A stretch of 64,000 bases of DNA from Actinomadura sp. 6K520 (GTDB lineage Bacteria > Actinomycetota > Actinomycetes > Streptosporangiales > Streptosporangiaceae): NCBI RefSeq assembly GCF_004349245.1, contig NZ_SMLC01000003.1, positions 1-64,000 of the forward strand, written 5' to 3'. Each line of letters begins with the position of its first letter. Position 1 is the first letter of the stretch. Shown here one piece after another: positions 49,881 to 63,765 of the stretch. The position numbers were made by a program, and so were the translations under genes. The notes beneath the pieces are model-generated. The model was not told the origin of the DNA. It saw only the letters and a program-made list of their open reading frames with translations, and did no database searches.

Positions 49881-51704
49881 ATGGAATGGCGGCTGGCGGA
49901 GTTCACCGAGGACCGCGAGCTCGGCCGCGGCGCGCAGGGCCGGGTCGTCCTCGCCCGGCACACCGCGACCGGGGCCCCGGTCGCGATCAAGTACCTCGGG
50001 CGGGGGGACGCCGCGGCGGTCGCGGGGCTGCGCGCCGAGGCGCAGATGCTCGGCCGCCTGACCAGCCCGTACGTGGCGCGCCTGTACCGGTTCGCGGAGA
50101 GCGAGCACGGCGCGGCGATCGTGATGGAGGCGGTCGACGGGGTGGCGCTGAAGGAGGTGCTGCGCGAGCACGGGTCCCTGGCGCCGGAGGCGGCGCTGCT
50201 CGTGCTGAAGGGCTCGCTGCTCGGGCTCGCCGCCGCCCACGCCGTCGGGGTCGTCCACCGCGACTACAAGCCGGCGAACGTCGTCGTGCGGCCCGACGGG
50301 CTGAGCAAGCTCGTGGACTTCGGCGTCGCCGTCCTGGCCGGGCACGGCTCGTCCGCCGGGACGCCCCTCTACATGGCCCCCGAGCAGTGGCGCGGCGAGC
50401 CCGCCACGCCCGCCACCGACGTGTACGCGGCGACGTGCGTGTTCGTCGAGTGCGTGACCGGGCACCGGCCGTTCGCCGCGGCGGACCGGGCCGCCCTGAT
50501 GAACCGGCACCTCACGGCCCCCGTCGACGTGGCCGGCGTGCCCGAGCCGCTGCGCCCGCTCGTCCTGCGCGGGATGGCGAAGGACTCGGGGGAGCGGCCC
50601 CCGGGCGCGGCCGAGTTTGTCACGTGGCTGGAGTCCGCCGCGGCCGCCGCGTACGGGAGCGACTGGGAGCGGCGCGGCGTCCGCGCGCTGGCCGCCGCCG
50701 CGGTCGCGCTGGCCGCGCTGTTCCCGCTCGGCGCGCTCACGGTCGCCCCTGCGTCCGCCGGGGCCGGGGCGGCCGGTGCGGCCGGGGCGTCCACCGCGGG
50801 CGCGGCGGGCGCGGCCGGGACGGGCGGCGGGGCCTCCGCCGGCGCCGTGGGGGCGTCCGTCGGCAAGGGCTTCCTCGCCACGGCGGCCGGCAAGGGGACG
50901 ATGGCGGTCGCCGGCACCGCCGTGGTCGCCGCGACGGCGGGCGGTGCGATCTACGCCGGGCGGGACGGCGCCGAGCCCCCGCCCGCCCCGGTCGTGACGA
51001 TGGCCGCGGACAGCCGGACGCTCACCGGCGGCCCGGCGAGGATCGAGATCCAGAACGCGCGGTACGCGAAGGTCACCGGCCTGGGCGACCCGGACCTGGA
51101 GCGGCGGATCAACGCCGAGCTGCGCGGCCCGCTGGACCGGCTGATCGAGATGGCGCGGGAGGGCGCCCGCCAGACGCCCTGCGCGGGCAGGCCCATGCAG
51201 ATCGGGACCGAGACGACGCTGGGGCTGCGCGGACCCCGCCTGGTGTCCGTCCGGTACTTCCAGCTCTCCGACTGGTGCCAGCAGGCGGACGGGTCGCCCG
51301 GCGGCGAGGTCGTCACCGTCGACCTGCGCACCGGCCGCAGGCTCACCGCCGCCGACGTGTTCCGTCCCGGCACGCTGACGGCCGAGGGGGTGCGCCGGCT
51401 CCAGGCGAGCGTCGAGCAGCGGGCGCCGGCCGAGCCCCGATGGGAGAACTGCAGCCCCGACGGGCGGTTCAAGGTCGCCGACTTCCTCCCGAGGAAGGCG
51501 CCCACCGCACCGGGCAGGGACACCGACCCGCCCTACCTGACCCCGTTCCTCACCCAGGCCGAATTCCGCATCGCCCATCTCGTGGGCGGAAGCGACGGCT
51601 GCGCCAACCTGAACTTCGGCGCCCCGTACGCGAGCGTCCGCGACCTGCTGAAACCCGAGATCGCCGCGGCGCTGCCCGGCGGCCCGTCCCCCGCCCGGAG
51701 CTGA
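49881..51704 (+). CDS. Ser/Thr protein kinase with Gly/Ala linker and RsiV-like C-terminal domain
   Basis: This 607-aa Hanks kinase has a Gly-rich loop LGRGAQGRVV near 14-23, Lys in VAIKYLG, catalytic loop HRDYKPANVVV (Tyr instead of the usual Leu/Val) near 130 and DFGVAVL near 150. GTPLYMAPEQWRG follows. The membrane helix is near 275-295. After a long Ala/Gly/Thr linker and a second hydrophobic stretch, residues about 370-600 form an extracellular domain with Cys pairs, resembling DUF3298/RsiV-type domains. It starts at ATG 49881 (a GTG three codons earlier is possible). It may sense wall or lysozyme-like signals. Confidence 0.88.
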   Translation: MEWRLAEFTEDRELGRGAQGRVVLARHTATGAPVAIKYLGRGDAAAVAGLRAEAQMLGRLTSPYVARLYRFAESEHGAAIVMEAVDGVALKEVLREHGSLAPEAALLVLKGSLLGLAAAHAVGVVHRDYKPANVVVRPDGLSKLVDFGVAVLAGHGSSAGTPLYMAPEQWRGEPATPATDVYAATCVFVECVTGHRPFAAADRAALMNRHLTAPVDVAGVPEPLRPLVLRGMAKDSGERPPGAAEFVTWLESAAAAAYGSDWERRGVRALAAAAVALAALFPLGALTVAPASAGAGAAGAAGASTAGAAGAAGTGGGASAGAVGASVGKGFLATAAGKGTMAVAGTAVVAATAGGAIYAGRDGAEPPPAPVVTMAADSRTLTGGPARIEIQNARYAKVTGLGDPDLERRINAELRGPLDRLIEMAREGARQTPCAGRPMQIGTETTLGLRGPRLVSVRYFQLSDWCQQADGSPGGEVVTVDLRTGRRLTAADVFRPGTLTAEGVRRLQASVEQRAPAEPRWENCSPDGRFKVADFLPRKAPTAPGRDTDPPYLTPFLTQAEFRIAHLVGGSDGCANLNFGAPYASVRDLLKPEIAAALPGGPSPARS

Positions 51705-54876: not shown

Positions 54877-56223
54877 TCAGGAGTGCGGCATCGGGTCGGG
54901 GGAGGGGCCGTTGACGTACCGGACGGCCCACCGCACCAGCTGCCGGCCCAGGCTGTACAGGATCAGCGCTACCCCGGCCAGCGGCAGGATCAGCAGGATG
55001 ATCTGCAGCCCGGACGTGAGCAGTTGCAGCGCGCCCGCCCCGTTCGCGGCGTCGTGCGCGAGCTGGCGGATCATCGCCCAGTCCTTGGCGATCAGGGCGG
55101 GGACCTGGCTGATGATGAGGCCGATCTGGAACGCCAGCGCCGGGATCACGGTCAGCACCCAGACCGTGACGAAGATCTGCGGCCAGCGCTTGAGGTCCCG
55201 CAGCCGCGCGTCCGCCGGGCGCCGCAGCAGCGTCCGCCGCAGGATCGGCCCGATGTACTTGAACAGGTCGGGGATGCCGATGAGGTCCGACATGATGTAG
55301 TACCCGTCGAACCTTAGGGTCGGCAGCAGCTGCTGGATCATCTGGAGGTTGACGTACAACACGGTGACGAGCAGCGGCGCGTACCCCGTCTGCAGGTACA
55401 GCAGAGCCAGCCCGACCACGAAAATGGCGTTGAAGTACACGCCGGCGAGGTCGGCGCGGAGCCGGCCGCCGCGCCCGAGCCGGTACGACTCGGTGATGTC
55501 GGTGTAGAACGCCGGCCACACCAGGTAGATCCCGCAGCCCATGACCCCGGGCCGGACACCACCGTACCGGCACGCCGCGGCGTGTCCCACCTCGTGGAAC
55601 GCGCACGACGCGATCCCGAGCCCCAGGACCAGCAGGATCGTGACCGGGTTGAGAATCGTGAACGACAGCGCGCCGACCATCGACTGCGAGAACAGCAGCC
55701 AGCTCTCGCTCACCAGGAACGCGACGAGCGCGAGCGCCAGCACCGCGGGCCGGAACAGCCACGAGAACAACCCGGCGATGAACCAGGTGAACGACTCGGG
55801 GAACACGGCGACCTTGAACTTCAGCGCCAGGAACGGGTCGGCCTTGACCACCGGCGGCGGCGAGCCGTCACTGTAGGTGGTGACACCGAGCGGGGCGAGC
55901 TTGCGGTCGACGAGGTAGACGATCTGCTCGGCGGTGAGCCGCGCGCCGGCCTCCTCGCTGACGGCCTCGGCCACCTGGTCGAGGGCCCGGCCGACGTCCT
56001 CACCCGCGAGGTGGCGGTGGTCGTGCAGGGCCTTGGCGACGATGAAGAGCAGCGGTGGCAGCCGGGCGAGCTGCCGGTTGGGCAGCAGGACGAGCTGAGG
56101 CGGCTCGCGGTAGCCGGAGTTCTTGAACTCGCCGACGAGTTCCGCGCCTTCGGCGAGCGCGGGCAGGACGAGCGCGGCCGGTGGCTCTGTGCCGTCCACG
56201 GACGGCGTGGCTGGTGTGCCCAT
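54877..56223 (-). CDS. M50-family membrane zinc metalloprotease with PqqD-like N-terminal domain
   Basis: This 448-aa protein has, from about residue 40 to 115, a PqqD-like winged-helix region (LVLLPNRQLARLPPLLFIVA ... IVYLVDRKLAPLGV), the type used to bind leader peptides. Then come several membrane helices, the zinc motif HEVGH at 210-214 inside FHEVGHAAACRYGG, and LRFDGYYIMSDL (Asp306), the third metal ligand region. It resembles 'putative peptide zinc metalloproteases' such as YydH. The start ATG overlaps the second peptide's stop by one base (TGATG), so they are translationally coupled. It probably cleaves or exports the two upstream peptides. Confidence 0.85.
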   Translation of the reverse strand: MGTPATPSVDGTEPPAALVLPALAEGAELVGEFKNSGYREPPQLVLLPNRQLARLPPLLFIVAKALHDHRHLAGEDVGRALDQVAEAVSEEAGARLTAEQIVYLVDRKLAPLGVTTYSDGSPPPVVKADPFLALKFKVAVFPESFTWFIAGLFSWLFRPAVLALALVAFLVSESWLLFSQSMVGALSFTILNPVTILLVLGLGIASCAFHEVGHAAACRYGGVRPGVMGCGIYLVWPAFYTDITESYRLGRGGRLRADLAGVYFNAIFVVGLALLYLQTGYAPLLVTVLYVNLQMIQQLLPTLRFDGYYIMSDLIGIPDLFKYIGPILRRTLLRRPADARLRDLKRWPQIFVTVWVLTVIPALAFQIGLIISQVPALIAKDWAMIRQLAHDAANGAGALQLLTSGLQIILLILPLAGVALILYSLGRQLVRWAVRYVNGPSPDPMPHS

Positions 56224-56477
56224 CAGTCCTGGTGGACCACGGTGCCCGGGACACAGGTCAGGGTGGAGGACGCCGGTTGGGCGAGCAGGCCGGTGCCGAG
56301 CAGGCCGGTGGTTCCGGACGAGTAGGTCGCCTGGCACGCGTAGACGATCGTGGTGGTGCCGGAGCCGTCGCCTCCGCGCGGCAGGGCGGTGGACAGCAGC
56401 AGCCGTTCGGGGAGGATCTCGGGAGTGAGCCGGTCCAGTTCCGCGTAGGAGAGCGTTCGGGTGCGCGTAGGGGTCAT
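56223..56477 (-). CDS. Precursor-like peptide 2 (two-Cys)
   Basis: This 84-aa peptide shares with peptide 1 a leader-like block (SYAELDRLTPEILPER at 10-25, then LLLST) and a C-terminal block with TTTIVYACQ and TCVPGTVV, with Cys48 and Cys75. The middle is Gly/Ser/Thr-rich. There is no signal peptide or membrane helix. The start is ATG with AAAGG nine bases upstream. It lies between peptide 1 and the M50 protease gene and is coupled to the latter. I infer a ribosomally made, processed peptide (RiPP or secreted two-peptide product), but no known class fits. Confidence 0.7.
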   Translation of the reverse strand: MTPTRTRTLSYAELDRLTPEILPERLLLSTALPRGGDGSGTTTIVYACQATYSSGTTGLLGTGLLAQPASSTLTCVPGTVVHQD

Positions 56478-56510
56478 CGTTCTGAGCCTTTGCGTTGTCG
56501 GGAGAAAAGG

Positions 56511-56544
56511 GGGAAGGGCTGGCGGGCGAACGCCAGCCCTTCCC
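56511..56544 (-). terminator. Attenuator hairpin between peptide 1 and peptide 2
   Basis: There is a 14-bp perfect stem (gggaagggctggcg with its complement) and a 6-base loop; on the minus strand it is followed by CCTTTTCTCC. A second smaller hairpin (GCGGGC-gtga-GCCCGC, 56547-56562) precedes it. It probably lets only part of the transcripts continue into peptide 2 and the protease, so peptide 1 is made in excess. Confidence 0.8.
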
Positions 56545-56579
56545 TTGCGGGCGTGAGCCCGCGGTCATGCTCGGTCGGA

Positions 56580-56858
56580 TCAGTGACCCGAGACCACCGT
56601 GCTGCCGGCGCAGGTGAACGAGGAGTTGTGGACCGGCGCGAGAACCGCGGCCACGCCCTGGCTCGAGTTGATGACGCTCTGGCAGTTCGGCACGACCGCG
56701 GTCGTGCCGCCGTCGCCGTTGCCGCCGCCGTGGTTGAGGTTGAAGTTGGCGTTCTCGTTCTCGCCGCCGCCACCGACGAGCAGGGTCGACAGAACGGCGC
56801 GCTCGGGCAGGACCTCGCCGGTCAGCTGCTCCAGCTCGGTGTAGGTGTAGGACTTCAT
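56580..56858 (-). CDS. Precursor-like peptide 1 (two-Cys, Asn/Gly-rich middle)
   Basis: This 92-aa peptide begins MKSYTYTELEQLTGEVLPER and continues AVLSTLL. A Gly/Asn/Glu-rich linker spans residues 29-51 (GGGGENENANFNLNHGGG), then come TTAVVPNCQ with Cys59 and TCAGSTVV with Cys83. The same blocks occur in peptide 2 while the intervening region differs, the pattern of leader/core precursor peptides. It starts at ATG 56858 with AAGGA upstream and has a good sigma-70-type promoter. It lacks an N-terminal signal sequence, so export would need the M50 protein or an unlinked transporter. Confidence 0.72.
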   Translation of the reverse strand: MKSYTYTELEQLTGEVLPERAVLSTLLVGGGGENENANFNLNHGGGNGDGGTTAVVPNCQSVINSSQGVAAVLAPVHNSSFTCAGSTVVSGH

Positions 56859-56948
56859 GTGGTTCCTTTTCTTCCTTGTCACGCCCGGATCTCAAGGTGG
56901 ATACCGGATGTCCCTTGCCTCACTGCAGGTCGCAGCGAGATAGCTCTA

Positions 56949-56978
56949 TGTATACCAGAGGTCACTCAATGTAGCCAA
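56949..56978 (-). promoter_or_regulatory. Promoter of the peptide/protease operon (TTGGCT-N18-TATACA)
   Basis: On the minus strand TTGGCT (56973-56978) and TATACA (56949-56954) are separated by 18 bases, a housekeeping-type promoter about 90 bp before peptide 1. The -10 overlaps the palindrome GTATAC. Confidence 0.55.
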
Positions 56979-57053
56979 GAGGGGCGTGTCGCGTCTCCGG
57001 ACCACGGACCGGCAGTGACGATTCAGCGCGTCCGGGCGGGTATGCGAACGGGC

Positions 57054-62707: not shown

Positions 62708-62971
62708 TCAGGTGAGGTCGTGCGCGCTGCTCTTGACCGAGCGGGTGAACGCCGACCATGCCGAGGCACTGAAGGTCAGCTTCGGCCCCTCCGGATCCTT
62801 GGAGTCACGCACACCGACCATGGGGGCAAGGTCCGCCACCTCAACGCAGTCGCCGCCCTCATGGCCGCTGTAGCTGCTCTTACGCCAGAGACCTGCCACC
62901 TCGACGCAGTTCCCCCCGGAATGGTCGCTGTAGCTGCTCTTACGCCAGTGAACGCTGGGCATGTCCTTCAT
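62708..62971 (-). CDS. DUF397 protein with internal tandem duplication
   Basis: This 87-aa DUF397 protein, the usual partner of WhiJ-type XRE regulators, contains the family hallmark WRKSSYS...GGxCVEVA twice (residues about 9-27 and 29-47) because of a 60-bp tandem duplication, then one copy of the rest (VGVRDSKDPEGPKLTFSASA). The ATG overlaps the regulator stop (ATGA). DUF397 proteins probably modulate the XRE partner. Confidence 0.9.
   Translation of the reverse strand: MKDMPSVHWRKSSYSDHSGGNCVEVAGLWRKSSYSGHEGGDCVEVADLAPMVGVRDSKDPEGPKLTFSASAWSAFTRSVKSSAHDLT
62834..62947 (-). repeat. 60-bp tandem duplication inside the DUF397 gene
   Basis: Segments 62834-62887 and 62894-62947 are highly similar with a 60-bp period and an identical 21-base end (the shared string covers ctgtagctgctcttacgcca). 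This doubles the N-terminal 20 residues of the DUF397 domain in frame. Confidence 0.8.
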
Positions 62972-63765
62972 AGGCTCTCCATGACAGCAGTTATCAAGGC
63001 TCGCGACTCGCCGACAGGCAGTGCGTAGCCTCTCAGCAAGTCATACCGTACGACATACTCGGGTACCCTCGTCGGCTGTTCAATGAGCATGCCCATTCCC
63101 GCTGACTCTGTGTAAGCGACATTTATGCCGTCGTTGAAGCCGAGAAGAGTGAAGCTTCCGGTCAGGCCGGGGTAGTAGCCCACGTCCTGTGGGACTACCT
63201 GGATCATCGTGTTGGGGCGCTCGCTTAGTTCCAGTAGAAAGCGGAGCTGCTCGCGCAGGACTGTCTTGTCGCCGACTACCCGCCGGAGGACTCCCTCATC
63301 GAGGGTGAACCACACATGAGGGCTGTCTTGCCTCGTAAGAATTTCCTGTCGCCTGAGTCGTTCTTGTACGAGTTCGTCAATGCTGGGGCCGTCGAGGGAC
63401 GCCATCATGGAACGAATGTAGTCCTCGGTTTGGAAGAGACCATTTACCAAGAGTGCCGAGTAGACCCTGACGGCATCAGCTTTCTTCTCGCGCTCCTGAT
63501 ACTCGACGAAGCCCGGCGGGAGAGTGGTCTGGACCTCGACTTCATTGGCGAGCTTCCAAAGGCGGTGAAATAGGCCGTCCGTCCTGAAGAAGGTATCGAG
63601 ATCTTGTGCGCTCTGTTCAGATACCTTGCGGCCGCTCTCCATCGTGCTGATCCACTGCGGGGTGCAGCCGAGAGCGTCGGCGAGCTCCTTGCCTGTAAGT
63701 CTGGCCTTGTCACGCATGCGGCGGAGTTCCGTGCCGAAGAAGGTGCGCGCTCGATTTTCACCCAT
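62968..63765 (-). CDS. XRE-family regulator with DUF5753 (WhiJ-like)
   Basis: This 265-aa regulator has an N-terminal Cro/C1 HTH (ELRRMRDKARLTGKELADAL, GCTPQWISTMESGRKVS) at about 13-52 and a C-terminal DUF5753 domain (ALLVNGLFQTEDYIRSMMAS, MIQVVPQDVGYYPGLTGSFT, VRYDLLRGYALPVGES). These WhiJ-like regulators with DUF397 partners are numerous in actinomycetes and influence development or antibiotic production. An inverted repeat GTTGAG-N10-CTCAAC at 63800-63821 upstream is a likely own operator. Confidence 0.92.
   Translation of the reverse strand: MGENRARTFFGTELRRMRDKARLTGKELADALGCTPQWISTMESGRKVSEQSAQDLDTFFRTDGLFHRLWKLANEVEVQTTLPPGFVEYQEREKKADAVRVYSALLVNGLFQTEDYIRSMMASLDGPSIDELVQERLRRQEILTRQDSPHVWFTLDEGVLRRVVGDKTVLREQLRFLLELSERPNTMIQVVPQDVGYYPGLTGSFTLLGFNDGINVAYTESAGMGMLIEQPTRVPEYVVRYDLLRGYALPVGESRALITAVMESL

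Follow-up and report, generated by a model that had tools for sequence, protein, structure and literature searches.

A precursor pair coupled to a membrane metalloprotease in Actinomadura and other actinomycetes, with a candidate leader-directed maturation route

The window analysed here is a whole stretch of 64,000 nucleotides from Actinomadura sp. 6K520 (RefSeq assembly GCF_004349245.1, contig NZ_SMLC01000003.1, positions 1 to 64,000). On its minus strand lies an operon in the order pepA, pepB, M50 protease gene: two small two-cysteine precursor peptides and a membrane metalloprotease whose N-terminal domain is predicted to resemble an RRE, the recognition element of ribosomally synthesized and post-translationally modified peptides (RiPPs). 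The peptide pair is tied to the protease across genera of soil actinobacteria. The reading that we lean towards is leader-directed intramembrane maturation of this pair, giving a disulfide hairpin product that leaves the cell and acts outside as a pair; the peptides are probably exported, and without modification of their cores. An earlier note, made from the DNA letters alone, had proposed the three open reading frames and several motifs; all three were found on the minus strand in the region it gave, the pepB stop and protease start overlapping as TGATG, and LPER in both peptides, the Cys pairs, HEVGH and LRFDGYY were each verified at their positions.

54877..56223, minus strand: RRE-M50 (site-2 type) membrane protease gene, RRE part predicted, 448 residues; start overlaps the pepB stop (TGATG)
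56223..56477, including stop, minus strand: pepB, precursor B, 84 residues
56580..56858, including stop, minus strand: pepA, precursor A, 92 residues; homologues, and a profile match in its own genome
56799..56810, minus strand: pepA LPER leader motif, residues 17–20; L, P and R invariant (95 sequences)
56403..56414, minus strand: pepB LPER leader motif, residues 22–25
56682..56684, minus strand: pepA core Cys59, an invariant alignment column
56610..56612, minus strand: pepA core Cys83, an invariant column; 23 residues lie between Cys59 and Cys83
56334..56336, minus strand: pepB core Cys48, within predicted strand 41–53
56253..56255, minus strand: pepB core Cys75, in predicted strand 70–82; faces Cys48 if the strand ends set the register
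55888..56157, minus strand: predicted RRE-like N-terminal β3-α3 domain of the protease, about residues 23–112
55582..55596, minus strand: HEVGH zinc site, residues 210–214; H210, E211 and H214 invariant in 39 proteases
55297..55317, minus strand: LRFDGYY motif, residues 303–309; D306 invariant in 39

Linkage of the peptide pair to the protease

A contig scan retained 74 loci from the best 80 of 106 stretches, 71 of them with close homologues and three (L088–L090) with distant ones that stand outside the core count. At least one precursor is present in 69 of the 71 core loci, which were selected by the protease itself, and at least two in 64; the coupling that the earlier note proposed thus extends to several genera, and the absence of homologous pairs from related genomes, named there as grounds for rejection, did not materialize. 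Both precursor-less core loci (L067 and L084) start at contig ends. An iterated profile recovered 156 precursor open reading frames from 90 loci, and the leader pattern [ED]xLPxRxx[LM][SG] matches 144 times within 3.5 kb upstream of the M50 gene on the same strand, against four times in the remainder of the 1,191 kb of loci on both strands. The window's own genome holds a single protease match, and in it the precursor profile finds only pepA and pepB at E < 1 (the next two matches have E 1.1 and 2.0). Among the best 80 of 106 stretches, the closest named protease homologues are from Actinomadura, at 86–87% identity. One locus (L038, 4963–7926) carries five tandem A-type precursors and one B-type, then the protease.

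The three-gene cassette appears self-contained: precursors and protease aside, none of the flanking gene clusters is common in more than one genus. Neighbours were scanned as nine in-frame window genes by Pfam and ten flanking-cluster representatives, within about 8 kb of the cassette. As the earlier note had supposed, no radical SAM, LanM, YcaO or ABC-transporter family occurs in either set. The gene caller placed the protease in its cluster in just 26 of 41 Actinomadura loci, with shadow frames elsewhere, which makes its protease counts too low. As far as sequence comparison reaches, then, it can be taken as established that the peptides are paired with the protease, that they share a leader motif and conserved cysteines, that the proteases are homologous, and that genera have no other gene commonly in common.

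Precursor and protease architecture

The precursor alignment has 95 rows (93 dereplicated from the 156, plus the two window peptides); loci L001–L006 and ten precursors lacking a recognised M start, including precursor A of L086, were dropped beforehand. The only invariant columns are L22, P23, R25, C48 and C75 (pepB numbering), while positions 28 and 29 are exclusively L/M and S/G in 95/95, and the leader consensus shared by the precursors is E-x-L-P-x-R-x-x-[LM]-[SG]. Unlike both cysteines, no Ser/Thr column is invariant. Exactly two cysteines occur in 147/156 precursors, 21–27 residues apart and 6–12 residues from the C-terminal end; a third is found in 8/156 and none in 1/156, the A-type precursor of L086 (6893–7243), whose B partner retains both. 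Beyond the motif, the precursors that fit its pattern (153 of 156) have a net charge of zero or below in 148 cases.

No Sec signal is recognisable in the precursors by eye inspection. Searches of curated family libraries produced no model fitting any precursor tried, peptides of the wider class described below included, and no match to a known regulatory domain in the peptides. A match to RamS, the SapB precursor, by one of the 95 precursors (E 0.63) was taken as chance.

Rates of nonsynonymous over synonymous substitution (dN/dS) were compared within Actinomadura, as relative values only, given non-independent pairs and strong GC bias. For pepA (38 loci) they are 0.23 in the leader, 0.88 in the middle and 1.15 in the core; for pepB (37 loci), 0.52, 1.06 and 0.57; and for the protease (20 loci), 0.39 over the first 115 residues and 0.44 over the rest. 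A separate whole-gene estimate gives medians of 0.91 for A, 0.58 for B and 0.42 for the protease.

Models predict three parts of the system: the hairpin, the RRE-like domain and the site-2 protease fold. In that of pepB, strands 41–53 and 70–82 form a β-hairpin with C48 opposite C75, a register taken from the strand ends. Confidence is 79–87 by ten-residue blocks across residues 41–80 and 70.6 over the whole model, with a predicted template modelling score (pTM) of 0.35; Foldseek with this model returned nothing below E 1.3, its top rows being unrelated proteins.

The protease model (mean predicted local distance difference test score 82.9) opens with an N-terminal β-β-β-α-α-α unit (predicted strands 28–32, 43–46 and 52–55; helices 57–68, 77–92 and 98–109) and continues into the membrane metalloprotease. 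β3-α3 is the topology of PqqD and of RREs, and on that predicted topology the domain may be described as RRE-like. The earlier note had called this region PqqD-like, a label that the topology supports and that profile comparison with PqqD, given below, does not. For the catalytic part, six rows of a structure comparison reach Z ≥ 8 and all are site-2 proteases: SpoIVFB (Z 9.3 over 159 residues at 4.7 Å, with a second entry at 8.2), RseP (8.5–9.1) and the M. jannaschii enzyme (8.4). A Foldseek search with the full-length protease produced no hit at E ≤ 0.001. SpoIVFB and RseP thus share the predicted catalytic fold; to our knowledge, they have neither this N-terminal domain nor small-peptide partners.

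H210, E211, H214 and D306 are invariant across 39 proteases, and the window protease has the HExxH, distal Asp motif and membrane helical core by which the M50/site-2 superfamily is recognised. PF02163 matches 22 of the 39 members weakly (best E 0.0036) and leaves the window protein itself unmatched. Its nearest curated family is daptide_HExxH (NF041824), at 93.1 bits and E 1.8e-26 against a cut-off of 300 bits. Two Amycolatopsis M50 proteins (L072 and L083) have an extra Pro-rich C-terminal tail, absent from the window protein, that ends in a short hydrophobic Cys-flanked segment (CPLLGVSMNC and CTLLGILFGCP).

Proposed maturation and its alternatives

By analogy, the cassette may be likened in action to daptide and epipeptide proteases, yet it fails membership of both on scores, tailoring genes and precursors. 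The part of the daptide report available to us (PMC10036551) describes MpaP as an intramembrane peptidase that depends on an RRE and takes off the daptide leader. The M50–RRE fusion is already known from daptides, and of the earlier note's proposal of an undescribed system the pairing stands, whereas an RRE-dependent M50-type peptidase had already been described. The score of 93.1 bits above is to the profile of this same peptidase, DapP/MpaP, and daptide precursors likewise carry a short acidic, proline-containing leader motif, with E-8, L-7, D-6, P-5, M-4, E-3 and P-1 in MpaA; changes at several of these MpaA sites lowered or abolished RRE-dependent decarboxylation by MpaB/MpaC, their importance being demonstrated for that step and not for the peptidase (same part of PMC10036551). 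Unlike daptide systems, the window has a peptidase below the family cut-off and two-Cys precursors with no invariant C-terminal Thr (pepA ends GH and pepB ends QD). The daptide tailoring and exporter genes (DapBCDM and DapT1T2) are unrecognised among the neighbours and cluster representatives scanned, and no oxidative decarboxylase, aminotransferase or methyltransferase is present in either set.

The epipeptide protease YydH/EpeP/LiaK (NF058609) is comparable as an M50 membrane protease thought, in the portions of the sources at hand, to cleave and release a small peptide; however, the window protease reaches just 45.3 bits against that family's cut-off of 225, and the scanned neighbours and cluster representatives lack the radical SAM family. 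The M50 pearlin proteases TglG and TmoG, as far as the available part of PMC10885120 describes them, are also membrane enzymes processing ribosomal peptides, whereas the conserved element is N-terminal here, a distinction drawn by description and not by sequence. Our literature search, whose library has few subscription-journal papers, found among the titles it listed no description of a three-gene, apparently unmodified leader-guided pair or of one leader over unrelated cores.

We infer leader binding, cleavage and its site, the disulfide, export and the extracellular role as follows. The leader E-x-L-P-x-R-x-x-[LM]-[SG] would be bound by the RRE-like domain at the protease N-terminus, which would then pass the chain on to the zinc site inside the membrane. 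The probable place of the cut is the conserved [LM]-[SG] pair or a position adjoining it; with the proline of LPxR matched to that of the daptide leader, the analogy puts it no more than about two residues from the pair. The released peptides would have about 55–70 residues and be mostly neutral or acidic, their C-terminal part forming the predicted β-hairpin, its two conserved cysteines presumably joined as a disulfide. The conserved Cys pair and the modelled hairpin together speak for a disulfide, made once the chain is outside the cytoplasm, rather than a thioether; none of the nearby genes is recognised as encoding a thioether-forming enzyme. With neither a recognisable Sec signal nor a linked exporter, the system would seem to rely on exit through the protease or on an unlinked exporter, after which the peptides may act outside as a pair; exit through the protease has been proposed for YydH/EpeP (in the parts available of PMC7026026 and PMC10885120).

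Several observations pull the other way. The N-terminal domain owes its RRE assignment to predicted topology: compared by hhalign with 17 PqqD regions, it reached a probability of 4.1% (E 0.01, 37 columns), a second run against PqqD aligned 64 columns at a lower score and a probability of 0.6, with one of 30 column-shuffled controls scoring higher, and the sole structure row on this part is a weak one (Z 4.8), to ThcOx 5lq4 of a cyanobactin pathway, which presumably carries an RRE. For the catalytic fold the margin is small, the next row being an unrelated rhodopsin at Z 7.6, a value that helical models can reach. The precursor model has a pTM of only 0.35, the alignment in which both cysteines are invariant excludes the Cys-free precursor of L086, and the pepB core value of 0.57 means that fast core change is not common to both peptides. 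Export is assumed, since no exporter was found among the scanned neighbours; SpoIVFB itself cleaves pro-sigmaK, a cytoplasmic protein. Deletion of epeP did not wholly abolish the product, according to the part of PMC10885120 available. Within Actinomadura a luciferase-like F420 oxidoreductase adjoins pepA (its cluster occurs in 31 of 41 loci), some daptides use a different luciferase-like protein as tailoring enzyme, and 29 loci have a HalD-like gene of the halogenase family a few kilobases farther downstream (for example, L018 12608–13510).

A two-peptide bacteriocin or toxin directed against neighbouring bacteria, a functional reading that is compatible with the proposed processing, seems to us unlikely, though it deserves a hearing. 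The frequency of loci with at least two precursors would suit it, as would a pepA core that evolves fast beside a leader that does not, and the several tandem A copies of strains such as that of L038. Against this, the scanned neighbours and cluster representatives include no immunity gene or ABC-transporter family, the peptides are mostly neutral or acidic rather than cationic, and 50 of 65 genomes of the window's genus hold the protease, most Actinomadura loci sharing neighbours, a pattern more like vertical inheritance. Being so common, and sitting among shared neighbours in Actinomadura, the cassette looks more like a resident function than a mobile weapon.

Somewhat less probable again is a RiPP core that is chemically modified, by lanthionine formation or otherwise, before leader removal by an unlinked enzyme or an Actinomadura neighbour. 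The cores contain many Ser, Thr and Cys residues, M50–RRE peptidases are otherwise known from modified peptides (PMC10036551, in the part available), and the luciferase-like and HalD-like genes just described would be candidate enzymes. Neither of these clusters was found outside Actinomadura among the loci, however, and no dehydratase family is present among the neighbours and cluster representatives scanned. The window oxidoreductase belongs to TIGR03557 (469 bits, cut-off 210) and not to TIGR03564, the model named for daptide clusters in the available part of PMC10036551, to which it scores just 67 bits against a cut-off of 234; it was rejected as a daptide-type tailoring enzyme. Conservation also points away from modification, both cysteines being invariant in the alignment where no Ser or Thr column is.

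We regard as improbable a regulated-proteolysis switch in which the peptides stay intracellular and the protease acts as in sigma- and anti-sigma-factor control. It draws on the catalytic part being nearest in fold to SpoIVFB and RseP, which act in signalling; but the peptides match no known regulatory domain, their paired conserved cysteines and the variable pepA core suit an oxidising outside, and similar leaders stand upstream of unrelated cores. Chaplins, the small hydrophobic two-Cys surface peptides of actinomycetes, recall the precursors in size, hydrophobicity and two cysteines near the C-terminus, but chaplin-like proteins replacing chaplins in these strains can be set aside with little hesitation: PF03777 matches none of the 95 precursors, on which ground chaplin homology, though not a surface role as such, was rejected, and the chaplin profile is matched in the window's genome and in all ten other genomes of its genus examined, so that chaplins coexist with the cassette and nothing is replaced.

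Gene context, distribution and the wider class

Leader-directed maturation of an exported pair, the reading that we favour, concerns a cassette whose surroundings differ between genera. The window neighbours include an esterase, a SpoIIE-type phosphatase and the luciferase-like oxidoreductase, with homologues in 27, 33 and 31 loci; the phosphatase is the commonest neighbour, at 33/41 Actinomadura versus 2/23 Streptomyces loci. Other Actinomadura neighbours are a ferritin-like protein, a protein kinase (window 50012–51701, scanned in frame with NCBIfam), the HalD-like protein and a carnitine-acyltransferase-like protein. Common in Streptomyces are an aconitase, an EPSP-synthase-like protein, an FG-GAP repeat protein and a GH92 enzyme; an aconitase-cluster gene lies near the cassette in 13 Streptomyces loci, directly before it in L052. 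Farther along the window (62711–63765), a two-domain DUF397 gene adjoins an HTH/DUF5753 regulator.

Upstream of pepA stand two conserved elements that form a putative promoter:

56949..56957, minus strand: conserved extended −10-like element 5' of pepA, TGG-TATACA in the window
56973..56978, minus strand: conserved −35-like hexamer TTGGCT, 18 bases from the −10

The commonest Actinomadura forms are TGCTATACG for the −10-like element and TTGGCC for the −35-like hexamer. The extended −10-like element and about 70 bases of 5' untranslated region (UTR) are strikingly conserved in the Actinomadura copies (window 56859–56980), and the tandem A copies of L032, L033, L035 and L038 each have their own −10-like element and UTR. 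A structured 5' UTR was rejected, as the window UTR folds no better than shuffles (z 1.28), and a scan of it against Rfam gave sub-threshold matches only.

Among Streptomyces loci named to species (within L052–L075), 15 of 18 fall in species with a Streptoverticillium synonym, a pattern biased by a scan that finds close relatives only and retains the best 80 of 106 stretches. The cassette can also sit on a plasmid, as in Streptomyces changanensis, where a two-Cys precursor lies upstream of the plasmid copy; the annotation there gives just hypothetical proteins. Precursors occur in 10 of 295 genomes of another genus (that of genome G494). On one 8.5 Mb contig (G770, C1) there are six matches to the precursors; pairs with equal scores lie close to each end, the arrangement that terminal inverted repeats would give.

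Protease homologues are present in 30 of 396 sampled Actinomycetota genomes, the window's own counted, and small open reading frames with an E-x-LPxR-xx-[LM] leader and different cores lie upstream of many of these distant, putatively RRE-fused M50 proteases. This wider set comprises 39 loci, 38 of them scorable, with about 4 kb or less of each in view. The motif stands upstream on the same strand in 21 (39 matches), against controls of three matches downstream and six on the opposite strand (three of those in L097). Three of the 21 loci (L007, L008 and L096) have a two-Cys core; excluding them leaves 18/35 loci and 32 matches. In some of the 17 scored loci with no such motif its place may be taken by a variant, for instance LPAK (L014).

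Several core types recur. Six loci (L098, L100–L103 and L120), from genomes with only the phylum in common with the window's, have two to four precursors each, with cores like NANVAAPVNAAVAANVLSD..A.A.Q..IDQ, beside RRE-M50 proteases. Another five (L109, L110, L112, L114 and L116) encode peptides of 68–70 residues, singly or in pairs, whose leaders are of the ESAELLPGREALG type and whose FSF..T.N cores end in Q; the Asn/Gln-rich ending of these peptides resembles amyloid-type repeats. The proteases of these five loci form a well supported clade. In L013, a Trp/Gln-rich peptide with the leader ELLPDRQALG lies upstream of the M50 gene.

On a tree of 57 proteases, core type changes eight times versus 29.7 for shuffled labels, a value as low in none of 200 shuffles. 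The 'KFSF' type is one protease clade (support 100/99), and the two-Cys rows fall within one branch of 23 (support 92/100). That branch also holds L080, which bears the label 'none' although its other strand encodes a two-Cys precursor. With a branch length of 9, row L055 is an artefact, and L122 was omitted, no protease having been recognised in it. That core type tracks the protease tree supports co-diversification but is no proof of it, as kinship alone can cluster labels. Our reading is that protease and leader are what stays constant in these systems, whereas the core is what varies.

A broader reading, which we offer tentatively and would not bet on, is a phylum-wide actinomycete route of maturation and export: RRE-fused intramembrane proteases would serve one LPxR leader type with many unmodified, unrelated cores, the protease would be the exit, and the products, instead of being antibiotics, would belong to the envelope or assemble at the surface. 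Its core types would be the disulfide hairpins, the Asn/Ala-rich 'NANVAAPVNAAVAANVLSD', 'KFSFNKTTNVTK' and the Trp-rich peptide. With just three genes, and with one protease and one leader motif serving different natural cores, the system lends itself to easy testing. If the proposals hold, leader-guided proteolysis would be separated from chemical tailoring, two things that definitions of RiPPs usually join, and the phylum would possess a widespread, apparently undescribed route to small peptides, with a sizeable unannotated class of them as its products.

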